Position numbers and translations under genes: made by a program. A stretch of DNA of 60,485 bases from Candidatus Pacearchaeota archaeon (GTDB taxonomy: Archaea; Nanobdellota; Nanobdellia; Pacearchaeales; GW2011-AR1). The notes below the pieces were generated by a model. That model saw only the letters and a program-made list of their open reading frames with translations, was not told where the DNA came from and did not search any database. Each line of letters opens with the position of its first letter. Position 1 is the stretch's first letter. Positions 6,095-40,545 of this stretch are shown piece after piece. The stretch covers positions 1-60,485 of the forward strand of contig SICV01000005.1 in the NCBI GenBank assembly GCA_009694725.1. The letters are read 5' to 3'.

Positions 6095-9076
6095 CTACTC
6101 ACTAAGAACAGTTGATTCTTCAGTAATTGCTTGCTCACCAGCTTGTTCTACTCTTTGTTGCTGTTCTACTTGTTCCTCAATTTTCTGTGCTTCTGCTGCC
6201 GCTTCTTGTATATTCAAGCTCAAGACTTTTGACACATTATCATGCATACTCACCCCATACAAGACCTGCGCTTGCATAATAATCGCATCATTGTGTGTAA
6301 TCACAATATACTGTCCCTGTTTCATGTACTTCACCAACAACGCCGCAAGACGCTCAGAGTTACGTTTATCCAATGCCGCGTCAATTTCATCAAACACATA
6401 GAAATGATAGGGTTTGTATTCTTGAATCGCAAACAAGAGCGACAAAGCGACCAAGGTCTGTTCCCCACCAGATAAGGAAGTCGCATCAAAGTATTTACCT
6501 TTCGCAAGCCGCACAATAATATGTACCCCTCCGGCAAAAATATCTTCAGGATTTTCTAATTCAAGATAGGCGGTCCCCTTTGTGTACAATTGCGCAAAGT
6601 TCTGGGTAAATAATTCATTCATAGCCCGGAACGTACGCATAAAGGAAAAGCGTTTCTTCTTATCAATTTCAGCAATAATCCCTATAATATCTATTTTTTC
6701 TTTTTCAACAATCTGTACTTTTCCATATACTTCATCATAGGAGTGTTTGACTTCATCATAGACTTCGAGGGCTCGTTGATTCACGCTCCCAATCGAACCA
6801 AGGTGTTCATGTGCTTTGCCAAGACGCTCTTCAAGATACGCCACACTTCCTTGTATCACTTCAAGCCCGGCAAAATCAATTAATTCCATTTCAACCGCTT
6901 CTCGTTCGGCATCAATCTTTGCTTTGCCAATCTTCAAATAATTGACTTGTTCTTCAATTGCGCGTATTCCACTCTGGGCCTGGCTCAATTCACCAGTCTT
7001 TGCTTGAATCAGTCGTTGTTTTTCTTCTCGTTCCGCAAATAATTGTTTAAATCTGGCCTGCAGATCTTTTTCCTGTCCTTCTTTTTCCTGTAACTGCCCT
7101 TGTTTTGTTTCAATGATCGTACTAAATGTCCCAATTTCTTTCTCTGCTTCCTCACGATCTCGGAGAGCTTGTTTAATGACTACGTGCATCTGTTCAAGTT
7201 CTCGCTTCTTGAAGAATAACGTTTTATCCATATCTTGTGAAGTACGAGCCGATAATTCCTCAATTTCCAGCATTTTAGAGCTATATTTTTCTTCGAGGGC
7301 TGAAATATCAGTTCCTTTCTCTTCAAGCTGTACACGTCGATGTTCTAACGTTTGCAATTCCTGACGAATCAATTTTTCTTCCTCAAGGTTCTTCTTGAGC
7401 TGTTGATGTTTCTCTTTCAAGGTGTGATGACGAATCTGCTCAACTTCAGCGCTATGAAGCCGTTGTTCAAGGTGAGCGAGGTCATGGGCCAAGGAACTTC
7501 GTTGAGCCAATAACTGTTGTAGCACTTCAGTACTCAACATACGTTGCTTCTCGGCGTGCCCCGCTAACAGATTAGCTTCATCACGCACATGTTGTTTATG
7601 GTCAGGCGTAATGGTCGTGCGACAAAGAGGACAGATATCGAGATTAGCAACCTGGTCGGTCAATTTCAATGAACGTTCCATTTCAATCTCCGAAACAGAA
7701 ATTAATTTTTCATGCTGGAGCGTTTGTTTGGCAATTGCTTCCAGTTCAGCGCGCAAATGAGTCGTTTGTGCTTTACCTTCATGAACAAAGTGACTACACG
7801 CCTCTTCAGTCTTGAACACTAAATGCGCTGCTCCTTCTTCCAACTGTCGAACCAGCGCTTCATTAAATGCAATTGTACGAGATAAGGTCTTTTCTCGTTC
7901 AAGCCAACGTTCACGAATATGGATCAGTTCAGATTTGGTTGCACGGACTTTTGTACGTGCTTCTTCAAGCTGGGCAAGTTCTTGTTTCTTTTTAGTTAAC
8001 TCTTCTGCTTTCTGAGCAGATCCCGGGGCGTCCGTAGCAAGCTGGGTAATTTCTACTTCAAGAGCAGGCACTGAACGCTGTAATTCCTGTATTCTTCGTT
8101 CAAAGTTCAACCGACGTTGCTCATATCCTTCTTTACGTACCTTCATTCCTTCCAATTCAGCCCGAAGATTAGCAATATGTGTATGGAGTTGTTCTTGCTC
8201 AAGCCCGGTTGCTTGCTGCACTTGCCGAGAAATCTGATTGCTTTGTTCTCCCAACGCATCAATCACGGCTTGCAATTCAAGGCCCTTAGATTTGGCAGCA
8301 TCTTTATGGGCCGTTTTTTCACCAATCGAATGGTTAATCGTATCCCCTTCCTTTTGCTTGTCAATCTTTCGTTTCGTCAATAACGAAGCTTTACACCGGC
8401 GAACGGTCAATTCTAACTCTTTGAACTTTAATGCTTGCTGGCGTTCATGTTCCAAATTCTTCAAATAGGCAGTACGTTCTCGCAGAATCGCCATAATCTC
8501 TTTCAATCGTTCATCTGTTTTCTCTAATTCTTTCAAACTTTTTTCTTTCCGTGATTCATAAATGGCAATCCCCGCAACTTCTTCAATGATTTTACGTCGT
8601 TCTTCAGGATGCATCTTAACAATGGACTGTATTTGGCCCTGAAGCACCATATTAAATCCATACGGGTCAATCCCTGCCTGGGCTAAGATCTCAATGACTT
8701 CTAATCGCGTCTTCGTCTCCCCATTAATCTTATAAATTCCCTGCCCATTTGCTCGGACAATTCTGGTCAAACTCACCTCATCCGTTTCCAATCCAAACAA
8801 GCGATCTCGATTATCAAACACTAATTCAACACTTGCCTCTCGAGCCGGTTTGACATATTTGCTCCCCATAAACAAGAGGTTCTTTGCCTTTGCCGCACGC
8901 AGACTCTTAATGCTTAATCGACCCAAAGCAAAGCATAAGGCATCAGAAATATTACTCTTACCTGAACCATTGGGGCCCAAGACTACGTTAATCCCCTTAT
9001 CAAAGTGGACTTCTGTTCGTCGTGCAAAGCTTTTGAAGCCATGCATTACCATTCGTGTAATATGCACCATCTTCAT
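6095..9076 (-). CDS. smc: SMC ATPase with a Rad50-like zinc hook in place of the hinge
   Basis: The head domains are SMC-type. GFKSF and GPNGSGKSN (Walker A) lie near residue 35. VLQGQIQSIVKMHPEERRKI follows in the N-terminal half. Near the C-terminus are LSGGEQ (~865) and FYVFDEIDAALD (Walker B, ~897). Two long coiled coils join them. In the middle I see no hinge domain; instead CPLC (Cys482, Cys485) sits exactly where the coil turns, like the CxxC hook of Rad50. At 993 residues it is shorter than the usual ~1150-1200. It should organise chromosomes or bridge DNA by Zn-mediated dimerisation. Two ATGs (9076, 9070) are possible starts; a TTAAATA box lies ~25 bases upstream. No ScpA or ScpB gene is adjacent. 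Confidence 0.9.
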   Translation of the reverse strand: MKMVHITRMVMHGFKSFARRTEVHFDKGINVVLGPNGSGKSNISDALCFALGRLSIKSLRAAKAKNLLFMGSKYVKPAREASVELVFDNRDRLFGLETDEVSLTRIVRANGQGIYKINGETKTRLEVIEILAQAGIDPYGFNMVLQGQIQSIVKMHPEERRKIIEEVAGIAIYESRKEKSLKELEKTDERLKEIMAILRERTAYLKNLEHERQQALKFKELELTVRRCKASLLTKRKIDKQKEGDTINHSIGEKTAHKDAAKSKGLELQAVIDALGEQSNQISRQVQQATGLEQEQLHTHIANLRAELEGMKVRKEGYEQRRLNFERRIQELQRSVPALEVEITQLATDAPGSAQKAEELTKKKQELAQLEEARTKVRATKSELIHIRERWLEREKTLSRTIAFNEALVRQLEEGAAHLVFKTEEACSHFVHEGKAQTTHLRAELEAIAKQTLQHEKLISVSEIEMERSLKLTDQVANLDICPLCRTTITPDHKQHVRDEANLLAGHAEKQRMLSTEVLQQLLAQRSSLAHDLAHLEQRLHSAEVEQIRHHTLKEKHQQLKKNLEEEKLIRQELQTLEHRRVQLEEKGTDISALEEKYSSKMLEIEELSARTSQDMDKTLFFKKRELEQMHVVIKQALRDREEAEKEIGTFSTIIETKQGQLQEKEGQEKDLQARFKQLFAEREEKQRLIQAKTGELSQAQSGIRAIEEQVNYLKIGKAKIDAEREAVEMELIDFAGLEVIQGSVAYLEERLGKAHEHLGSIGSVNQRALEVYDEVKHSYDEVYGKVQIVEKEKIDIIGIIAEIDKKKRFSFMRTFRAMNELFTQNFAQLYTKGTAYLELENPEDIFAGGVHIIVRLAKGKYFDATSLSGGEQTLVALSLLFAIQEYKPYHFYVFDEIDAALDKRNSERLAALLVKYMKQGQYIVITHNDAIIMQAQVLYGVSMHDNVSKVLSLNIQEAAAEAQKIEEQVEQQQRVEQAGEQAITEESTVLSE

Positions 9077-37641: not shown

Positions 37642-40545
37642 TTATTCCCCGCAGCCAGATCTCGTCGTTTGTTTACAGGACGTACACACCATTGCACAGT
37701 TACCCAGGCGCTTTGCAGGTCCACCGCACTGAGGGCAGACAAGCCCTTCATTCCCAAAAGTTTTGAGCGAAGCTTGCTCTTCTACTTTCGCAGGTTGTCC
37801 ATCGCTTAATGAAGTCTCATCCTGCATGACTTCAGTCAATGAAAGGGAAGCTTGTGTAACTGCACCAGGCTGGACAGGAGTTAGACTTACATTCAGTCCA
37901 CCCGCACCCGGACCAAATCTGCTCAACATAAACTGAGAGATATAATCCACAATAGAAGAAGCGGTACGAATCGGGACATACCCTGCATCCAAGTCTCCCG
38001 GTAATGCTCCTTTCACAAACCCTGCAGGCTCAAACTTCTGATGCCGGAACTTATTGAACAAGACATCAACTGGAATACCAAATTGCAAGTTCATGGAGAT
38101 CGACGTTGCCCAGGCATCAACTAATCCATTAACCGTGCTTCCTACCTTGTGCATCGTGAGGAACAATTCCCCAGGCTTCCCATCATCATAGAGACCAATT
38201 GTCAAATACCCTTCATGGCCTGCAATTTCAAACTTATGGGTAATGGCCTGACGTGTTTGAGGTAATTTCTTCCGTTCAAGTTTAACCAACTGGACTTGTG
38301 GAGCAACAGCATCTTTCTTCACCATTTCTCCTTCCGTCTTCTTGGTATTCAACGGCTGAGAACGTTTCGAGTTTTCACGATAAATAGCGACAGCCTTCAG
38401 ACCAAGCTGCCAGGAAAGCGCATAGGCTTCAGCAATGTCAGTAACAGTCGAAGTTTCAGGTAAATTGACTGTTTTACTAATAGCTCCTGAAATAAACGGT
38501 TGTCCGGCAGCCATCATTTTCACGTGACCCGACCATTGGATACTACGTGTTCCTTTTGCAGGTTTAAAGGCACAATCAAAGACAGCAAAATGCTCAGGAC
38601 GCACATCAGGAGCACCTTCAATCGTATCCTGCTTATCAATAAAGTCAATAATACGACTCACTGCATCTTCAGAATACCCCAGTGTGCGTAACGCAAGAGG
38701 AACTGAACGATTCACGATCTTCAACATCCCCCCTCCGCTCAGTACTTTATACTTAACTAACGCTATGTCTGGTTCAACGCCCGTTGTGTCACAATCCATC
38801 ATAAAAGCGATCGTTCCCGTTGGAGCTAACACGGTCATCTGGGAATTACGGAATCCGAAGTAAGTCCCTGTTTCAACCGCATCACTCCAACTATCCCAGG
38901 CATGATTTGTTAACTCACGTAAGAATGAAGGCATTTTGGCGACATCAATTCCCTTGACAGCATCTCGATGCATGTTCATTACTGCGAGCATTGGTTCCTT
39001 ATTCTTTTGAAAACCAGGAAACGGACCAACCAACGAAGCAAGTTCAGAAGAAATCAGATACGCTTCCCCACACATAAGGGCAGTCAATGCAGCAGCAACT
39101 GCTCGCCCTTCGTCAGAATCATACGGCAAGCCCCAACTCATCAACAAAGCACCCAAATTAGCGTAACCCATTCCTAATGGACGATAATCCCGGCTATTAC
39201 GACAAATTTTTGCTGTTGGGTAACTACTCCCATCAACTAATAAGTCCATACAAATCGCCAAGATCTTGACGACATGTTTGTATCGTGCAACATCAAAGCT
39301 CCCATCATCCCTGCGGAATTTCATTAAATTAATGCTGGCAAGATTACAAGCACTATCATCAATAAACATATATTCAGAACACGGATTACTTGCATTAATA
39401 CGCGCAGTATTCTTACACGTGTGCCACTTATTAATCGTGGTATCATATTGCATACCTGGATCCCCACACAACCATGTTCCTTCTGCAATTTTCAACAGTA
39501 AGTCCTTCGCAGCGTATTTCTCACAAGGTTCGCCCGTCTTAACCATCTTTGTCCACCATTCTCCATTCTGTTGCGCCGTCACCATAAATTCATCACTCAC
39601 GCGCACGGACATATTAGAATTCTGGAAAAAGACACTACCATAGGCATCCCCATTCATGCCCCCCGAATATCCATGCTCAATTAATGCCCAGGCCTTTTTT
39701 TCTTCCATTTGTTTTGCGGTAATAAAATCAAGGATATCGGGGTGATCAATATTCAAAATTTCCATTTTTGCAGCTCGACGCGTCTTCCCACCAGACTTAA
39801 CTACGCCCGCATACGCATCATACCCTTTCATAAATGACAACGGTCCTGAGGCTTTCCCACCGCCCGTGACTTTTTCTCGGCTACTCCGTAAGGGGGAACG
39901 ATTGGTACCGGTACCTGAACCTGCTTTGAATAAATTAGCTTCAGCAACTTGTACTTCCATAATCGATTCCATCGTATCCTGAATACTTTGAATGAAACAA
40001 GCAGAACATTGGGGACGATCATCCGTCTTGAATGTAGGCATGATCGTATCGCTCTGTGCATCCCATTTCCAAGAACTCACTCCCCCTGCCCCCGCGTTGT
40101 ATTCCTGAATACCTGCATTAAACCAGACCGGAGAATTAAACACTGCAAGTTGATTCACACAAATAGCAATGATTTCATCATGTAACACCTGCGCTTGTGT
40201 TTCATTAAAGTATCCCTGTTTAATCGCTTGACGACGGATATAGCGCGCTACGCGTCCAATAAGCTGTTCTACGCTGTTTTCACGTTCACCTTTGAGCATA
40301 TCCCCCCAGAAATACTTATTCGCAACAACTTTAATGGCCAACGCACTCCAAAAGTCAGGGCGCTTGACTGCGGGTTGGGTAAACACTGCCTTTCCCATAT
40401 CATCAGTCAACTTCACATCATCACTAATCCACGTAATGGGGTTCCCAAAGATATCAAAATGAAACGGATTCTTCCCTTCAACAGTTAAGACTCGTTCAGG
40501 GCTAAAGGTACCCAGGGTCAATTGGTGCATACGTTCAGGCGTCAT
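37642..40545 (-). CDS. nrdJ: Class II (cobalamin-dependent) ribonucleotide reductase
   Basis: It makes deoxyribonucleotides using adenosylcobalamin. The three catalytic-site cysteines are visible: QCSACFIQS, NPCSEYMF (with its Glu) and ACNLASINL. The long chain (967) includes the C-terminal TSCPD-like region and a final Cys cluster (CPQCGGPAKRLGNC...CTSC, then SGCGE) that passes electrons to the active site. It starts 4 bases inside nrdR. No beta-subunit gene is nearby, as expected for class II, and I saw no cobalamin riboswitch upstream. The cell must obtain B12. Confidence 0.96.
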   Translation of the reverse strand: MTPERMHQLTLGTFSPERVLTVEGKNPFHFDIFGNPITWISDDVKLTDDMGKAVFTQPAVKRPDFWSALAIKVVANKYFWGDMLKGERENSVEQLIGRVARYIRRQAIKQGYFNETQAQVLHDEIIAICVNQLAVFNSPVWFNAGIQEYNAGAGGVSSWKWDAQSDTIMPTFKTDDRPQCSACFIQSIQDTMESIMEVQVAEANLFKAGSGTGTNRSPLRSSREKVTGGGKASGPLSFMKGYDAYAGVVKSGGKTRRAAKMEILNIDHPDILDFITAKQMEEKKAWALIEHGYSGGMNGDAYGSVFFQNSNMSVRVSDEFMVTAQQNGEWWTKMVKTGEPCEKYAAKDLLLKIAEGTWLCGDPGMQYDTTINKWHTCKNTARINASNPCSEYMFIDDSACNLASINLMKFRRDDGSFDVARYKHVVKILAICMDLLVDGSSYPTAKICRNSRDYRPLGMGYANLGALLMSWGLPYDSDEGRAVAAALTALMCGEAYLISSELASLVGPFPGFQKNKEPMLAVMNMHRDAVKGIDVAKMPSFLRELTNHAWDSWSDAVETGTYFGFRNSQMTVLAPTGTIAFMMDCDTTGVEPDIALVKYKVLSGGGMLKIVNRSVPLALRTLGYSEDAVSRIIDFIDKQDTIEGAPDVRPEHFAVFDCAFKPAKGTRSIQWSGHVKMMAAGQPFISGAISKTVNLPETSTVTDIAEAYALSWQLGLKAVAIYRENSKRSQPLNTKKTEGEMVKKDAVAPQVQLVKLERKKLPQTRQAITHKFEIAGHEGYLTIGLYDDGKPGELFLTMHKVGSTVNGLVDAWATSISMNLQFGIPVDVLFNKFRHQKFEPAGFVKGALPGDLDAGYVPIRTASSIVDYISQFMLSRFGPGAGGLNVSLTPVQPGAVTQASLSLTEVMQDETSLSDGQPAKVEEQASLKTFGNEGLVCPQCGGPAKRLGNCAMVCTSCKQTTRSGCGE

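Follow-up and report, generated by a model that had tools for sequence, protein, structure and literature searches.

A hinge-less SMC protein with a candidate zinc hook of the Rad50 type in an order of tiny uncultivated archaea

A hinge domain is regarded as a defining and near-universal part of SMC proteins. The window, that is, the whole 60,485-nucleotide stretch of archaeal DNA analyzed here, encodes a 993-aa protein that an earlier note, made from the sequence alone, had described as an SMC ATPase with a CPLC motif in place of this domain. Is it an SMC protein whose arms are joined by a zinc hook, a Rad50-like protein with SMC-like heads, or a product of faulty assembly? The evidence assembled below indicates that it is very probably the SMC ATPase of the cell, composed of SMC heads, antiparallel coiled-coil arms and a Rad50-type zinc hook that replaces the hinge.

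SMC heads and absence of the hinge

Both ends of the protein are of the SMC type, as the earlier note had claimed from their motifs. The Walker A, LSGGEQ signature and Walker B sequences are all present (Table 1), the Pfam family SMC_N matches with 211 bits spanning both ends, and the nearest PDB structures found by phmmer are the Pyrococcus Smc heads (5xei, E 5.7e-99). Among the NCBIfam models, SMC_prok_A and SMC_prok_B scored 489 and 465 bits, respectively, the best Rad50 model scored 82 bits and the ASRP model 54.6 bits. None of these models reached its curated cut-off, as expected for a protein that lacks the hinge part. A single SMC was found in the window's own genome (636 kb, 10 contigs). 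Elsewhere in the window, positions 37642-40545 of the minus strand encode a 967-aa ribonucleotide reductase with matches to the barrel domain, the TSCPD domain and, at the N-terminus, a class II (B12-dependent) model.

Table 1. Coordinates of the smc gene and its parts in the window, and loci of the hook-less SMC proteins
Feature	Location	Strand	Description or basis
smc gene	6095-9076	minus	ATG start, 993 aa; SMC without hinge, zinc hook at apex
N-terminal half of ATPase head (residues 1-185)	8522-9076	minus	SMC_N and phmmer to 5xei
Walker A GPNGSGKS (residues 34-41)	8954-8977	minus	In N-terminal head half
Ascending coiled-coil arm (residues 186-481)	7634-8521	minus	N-arm lengths of relatives; helix in AF2 apex model
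CPLC zinc-hook motif (residues 482-485)	7622-7633	minus	Invariant C/P/C and Rad50-hook profile match
Apex segment modelled by AF2 (residues 415-554)	7415-7834	minus	Helix, hook loop, helix
Descending coiled-coil arm (residues 486-799)	6680-7621	minus	C-arm lengths of relatives
C-terminal half of ATPase head (residues 800-958)	6203-6679	minus	SMC_N and phmmer to 5xei
Signature LSGGEQ (residues 868-873)	6458-6475	minus	In C-terminal head half
Walker B FYVFDEID (residues 892-899)	6380-6403	minus	In C-terminal head half
Hook-less, hinge-less SMCs	L039, L100, L101, L104, L105, L107, L108, L109		In genomes G273, G282, G284, G286, G287, G289, G290, G292, respectively

The SMC_hinge domain (PF06470) was not found in the 993-aa protein at E<=1, nor anywhere in its genome by six-frame search, in agreement with the earlier view that no hinge is visible; the absence of a match in the genome also rules out a split hinge encoded elsewhere. 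The window belongs to an order of tiny uncultivated archaea. In a six-frame PF06470 search of 279 genomes from the phylum, all 38 genomes from this order lacked a hinge match, whereas 228 of the 241 genomes of other orders possess it. This distribution argues against an assembly artefact, and deletion of the hinge during assembly is ruled out by the occurrence of the same architecture in separate genomes across the order. Among the 13 genomes of other orders without a hinge match, four (G007, G046, G177 and G229) hold only short SMC fragments, and the remaining ones gave no usable SMC match. The distance between the two head halves is 611 residues (median) in the hook-bearing SMCs of the order vs 820 residues in the hinge SMCs of the other orders, a difference of 209 residues that is close to the 150-200 residues estimated in the earlier note.

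An SMC homologue was identified in 130 of the 132 sampled genomes of the order. Three genomes of one genus (G099, G126 and G257; family f55, genus g114), two of them assembled as single contigs and one in 7 contigs, yielded no match to SMC when the phylum was searched; they are 90-95% complete. Inserts of several hundred residues at Walker A were observed in L010, L031, L037 and L099 (SMC open reading frames of G213, G261, G241 and G283). In L099, the insert follows the Walker A lysine, begins with Cys and ends with His-Asn before Ser, and is intein-like; open frames of ~1490 aa point to the same insert in G319 and G371.

The apex and its likeness to Rad50 zinc hooks

The CPLC motif is located at the turn of the coiled coil, at the residues given previously. 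A CPxC motif occupies the same place in each of the 63 long SMCs from the order that were amenable to measurement, in which the N-terminal arm has a median length of 297 residues (range 291-311) and the C-terminal arm is exactly 311 residues long in 48 of the 63 proteins. Since cysteine accounts for 0.19% of the other arm residues in these proteins, the motif occurs more often than expected by chance. In an alignment of 30 diverse apices of the family, which are 14-34% identical to the apex of the window protein, invariance is confined to the C, P and C columns, and a His located eight residues past the second cysteine is nearly invariant.

The Rad50_zn_hook family (PF04423) does not reach E<=1 with the single sequence from the window, but is matched by 26 of the 30 family apices at E<=0.1 (best 4.2e-8), and many SMCs of the order exceed the Pfam cut-off (best 35.7 bits). 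The Rad50-type assignment of the earlier note therefore rests on the family, having been recovered among the relatives and not with the window's own apex. A profile built from the apices retrieved the Pyrococcus Rad50 hook structures as top matches in the PDB (1l8d, E 7.5e-9; 6zff, E 9.6e-9). In the opposite direction, an HMM of the SMC hooks was run on 37 Rad50 hooks (36 from the window's order and one from Pyrococcus), giving a median score of 42.7 bits vs 5.9 bits for shuffled sequences that keep CPxC; the real hook outscored all of its shuffles in each of the 37 cases. Together, the profile and shuffle tests indicate that the likeness between SMC and Rad50 hooks goes beyond the two cysteines.

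The AF2 monomer model of residues 415-554 (mean pLDDT 95.0) consists of two long helices (10-63 and 77-139 in segment numbering) with the CPLC loop in between. A Foldseek search with this model placed Rad50 hooks at ranks 1, 2, 4 and 5, with weak E-values (0.02-0.06) that are usual for coiled coils.

An alternative explanation is that CPxC arose convergently as a zinc-independent or redox (disulphide) motif, so that no metal-bridged dimer would form and the ring would be closed only at the heads and kleisin. The presence in the same order of relatives that have neither hook nor hinge is consistent with this scenario, which we nevertheless consider improbable: the apex profile fits Rad50 hook structures well past the cysteines, the fit including an aliphatic residue at +7 and His at +11, both common in the Rad50 hooks of the same order, and C, P and C are the sole invariant positions of the apices. 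Judged by these sequence comparisons, the apex of the order's SMCs is homologous to Rad50 zinc hooks, and its CPxC motif is under strong constraint. The earlier statement that the protein mixes two ATPase classes is valid for the apex only, since both heads are wholly SMC.

Head phylogeny, a second variant and the origin of the hook

Rooting the head tree with Rad50 proved unreliable and was dropped because of the very long branch; the SMCs of Pyrococcus and Bacillus were used as the root instead. In the rooted tree, all 40 sequences of the window's order form one clade (97/90), which stands beside 15 hinge-bearing sequences from other orders (96/90). In the head tree that includes Rad50, the Rad50 proteins of the same order separate from all SMCs (100). 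The head is therefore placed next to hinge SMCs and not within the Rad50 clade. Within the order, the sequences of family f91 branch first and all others form one clade (100/98).

These results bear on the possibility that the window protein is a divergent Rad50, or an ASRP (Sph, coalescin), that is merely SMC-like in its head. Indeed, the zinc hook is common to all these proteins, and zinc-hook proteins related to SMC are common in archaea according to the ASRP study (PMC9389158). However, the SMC models score about 400 bits higher than those for Rad50 and ASRP, the homology to hinge SMCs continues into both arms, and the head tree keeps the protein outside Rad50. Moreover, a genuine Rad50 is present alongside it in 130 of the 132 genomes of the order, among which no ASRP scored above the cut-off. 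The model scores and the head tree lead us to reject a Rad50 or ASRP identity, the probability of which is practically negligible.

Families f4 and f91, as well as part of f3, possess shorter SMCs of 780-810 aa with canonical heads, a head-to-head distance of about 456 residues and neither hinge nor CxxC (Table 1), showing that the lineage can do without the hook. The AlphaFold model of their apex, built from only 8 sequences (pLDDT 86.8), is a helical hairpin bounded by two short strands, and its best Foldseek match is the arm of Pyrococcus Smc.

The simplest reading, which is partly shown, is that the order's ancestor lost the hinge in a single event. The hook would then, again on the simplest reading, have been in place at least by the second node of the order and lost later in some lineages, although repeated gains of the hook may have occurred. 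The hook probably came from a Rad50 of this phylum. The SMC-hook HMM gave 43.3 bits for Rad50 hooks from the window's order vs 35.7 bits for those from sister orders, the sequences compared being not independent; this modest difference in sequence scores leans towards a local donor without settling it. On a broader proposal, the order lost the hinge and replaced it in two ways, by a Rad50 hook in most lineages and by a short helical apex in the others, and the hook SMC could pair with Rad50. We hold this combined proposal as tentative, with slightly less than an even chance of being correct.

Partner genes, predicted complex and comparison with known systems

The search of the same genome for partner genes recommended in the earlier note recovered ScpA, ScpB, Rad50 and Mre11. 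ScpA, the predicted kleisin partner, scores 48.5 bits in the window's own genome and is present in nearly all sampled genomes of the order, and ScpB homologues were found in 124 of 132. According to one study, the ScpB subunit seems to be missing from the archaeal Smc complex, and archaeal ScpA and ScpB may not bind each other (PMC7055376). No mre11 gene is located at the smc gene; instead, it adjoins the genome's own rad50 on contig C4. It should be noted that this rad50 (L056:3282-5401) is split into two overlapping frames of 575 aa and 151 aa, which may reflect an assembly or sequencing error, since a genome of the same genus (G335) has one frame of 713 aa.

The co-occurrence of two hook proteins in nearly every genome of the order, together with the homology of their hooks, raises the possibility that SMC and Rad50 hooks pair in one cell and that some SMC-Rad50 heterodimers link chromosome folding to break repair. 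Such heterodimers appear very improbable, as the SMC arm of about 300 residues differs in length from that of Rad50 (about 690 aa for the whole protein), and the two hooks diverge in sequence at several sites, for example with L-Q vs K-S after the motif.

The protein is best read as part of a genuine Smc-kleisin complex in which a zinc hook derived from Rad50 joins the arms. Two SMC monomers would join at the apex, where four cysteines would hold one Zn(II); ATP would drive engagement of the heads, and ScpA would bridge the engaged heads to produce a closed SMC-kleisin ring, which would organise the chromosome or handle DNA like other Smc-kleisin complexes. Metal binding, dimerisation and loop extrusion are predicted properties of the hook SMC. 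The earlier note also suggested that the hook could change how loops form. By analogy, loop formation need not change much, because growth on rich medium is normal when B. subtilis has Smc(Zh), which carries the Rad50 hook of P. furiosus (Buermann et al. 2017, PMC5344682). The reverse swap is also functional in fission yeast, where S. pombe Rad50 was given the MukB hinge (Tatebe et al. 2020, PMC6969161).

The synthetic swaps were an argument that B. subtilis Smc is indifferent to the fold of its dimerisation module, and the natural swap in this order, combined with the kept ScpA and a near-constant arm length, is evolutionary evidence for the same claim. The hinge has been proposed as a gate for ssDNA or RNA that is obligate for obstacle bypass and dispensable for extrusion by Wadjet (PMC12647877). 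The swap should cost functions that need the hinge channel, such as this gate, and the order supplies small natural proteins with which loop extrusion could be separated from hinge-gate functions. If the proposal of two replacements is true, hinge-specific functions, including the ssDNA/RNA gate and DNA binding by the hinge, would be dispensable for a working Smc-kleisin complex. Our full-text literature searches, which did not extend to preprints and most subscription papers, turned up no SMC that bears a hook by nature; as far as found, a hinge-to-hook swap has been reported only as a laboratory construct.

The window protein shares with canonical Smc-ScpAB (Pyrococcus 5xei and B. subtilis Smc) the Walker A, signature and Walker B motifs, the heads and the homology of the arms, as well as ScpA and ScpB homologues in a genome with no second SMC found. 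Unlike canonical Smc, it lacks SMC_hinge and has a CPxC hook at the apex, with the shorter head-to-head distance given above. The zinc hook of Rad50/SbcC (PF04423; 1l8d, 6zff and 5gox) has the same CPxC loop between two long helices, with the same +7 aliphatic and +11 His positions and the profile match described, whereas the heads of the window protein are SMC-type and the Mre11-Rad50 pair is encoded separately. The ASRPs (coalescin/ClsN, Sph; NF045487), reported in archaea in 2022 (PMC9389158), are likewise archaeal SMC-superfamily ATPases with a zinc hook, but the window protein falls far below their cut-off of 300 bits and scores as an SMC instead. A 2025 study described SMCs of marine Actinobacteria that have neither hinge nor CXXC (PMC12153180); they are also hinge-less members of the SMC lineage, whereas the window protein has CPLC, and the hook-less SMCs of the order resemble this actinobacterial class more, a likeness by description only. 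Finally, Smc(Zh) and Rad50 with the MukB hinge likewise exchange hinge and hook on an SMC-type ATPase and are functional in vivo; both are laboratory chimeras, whereas the swap seen in the window protein is natural and extends across an archaeal order.
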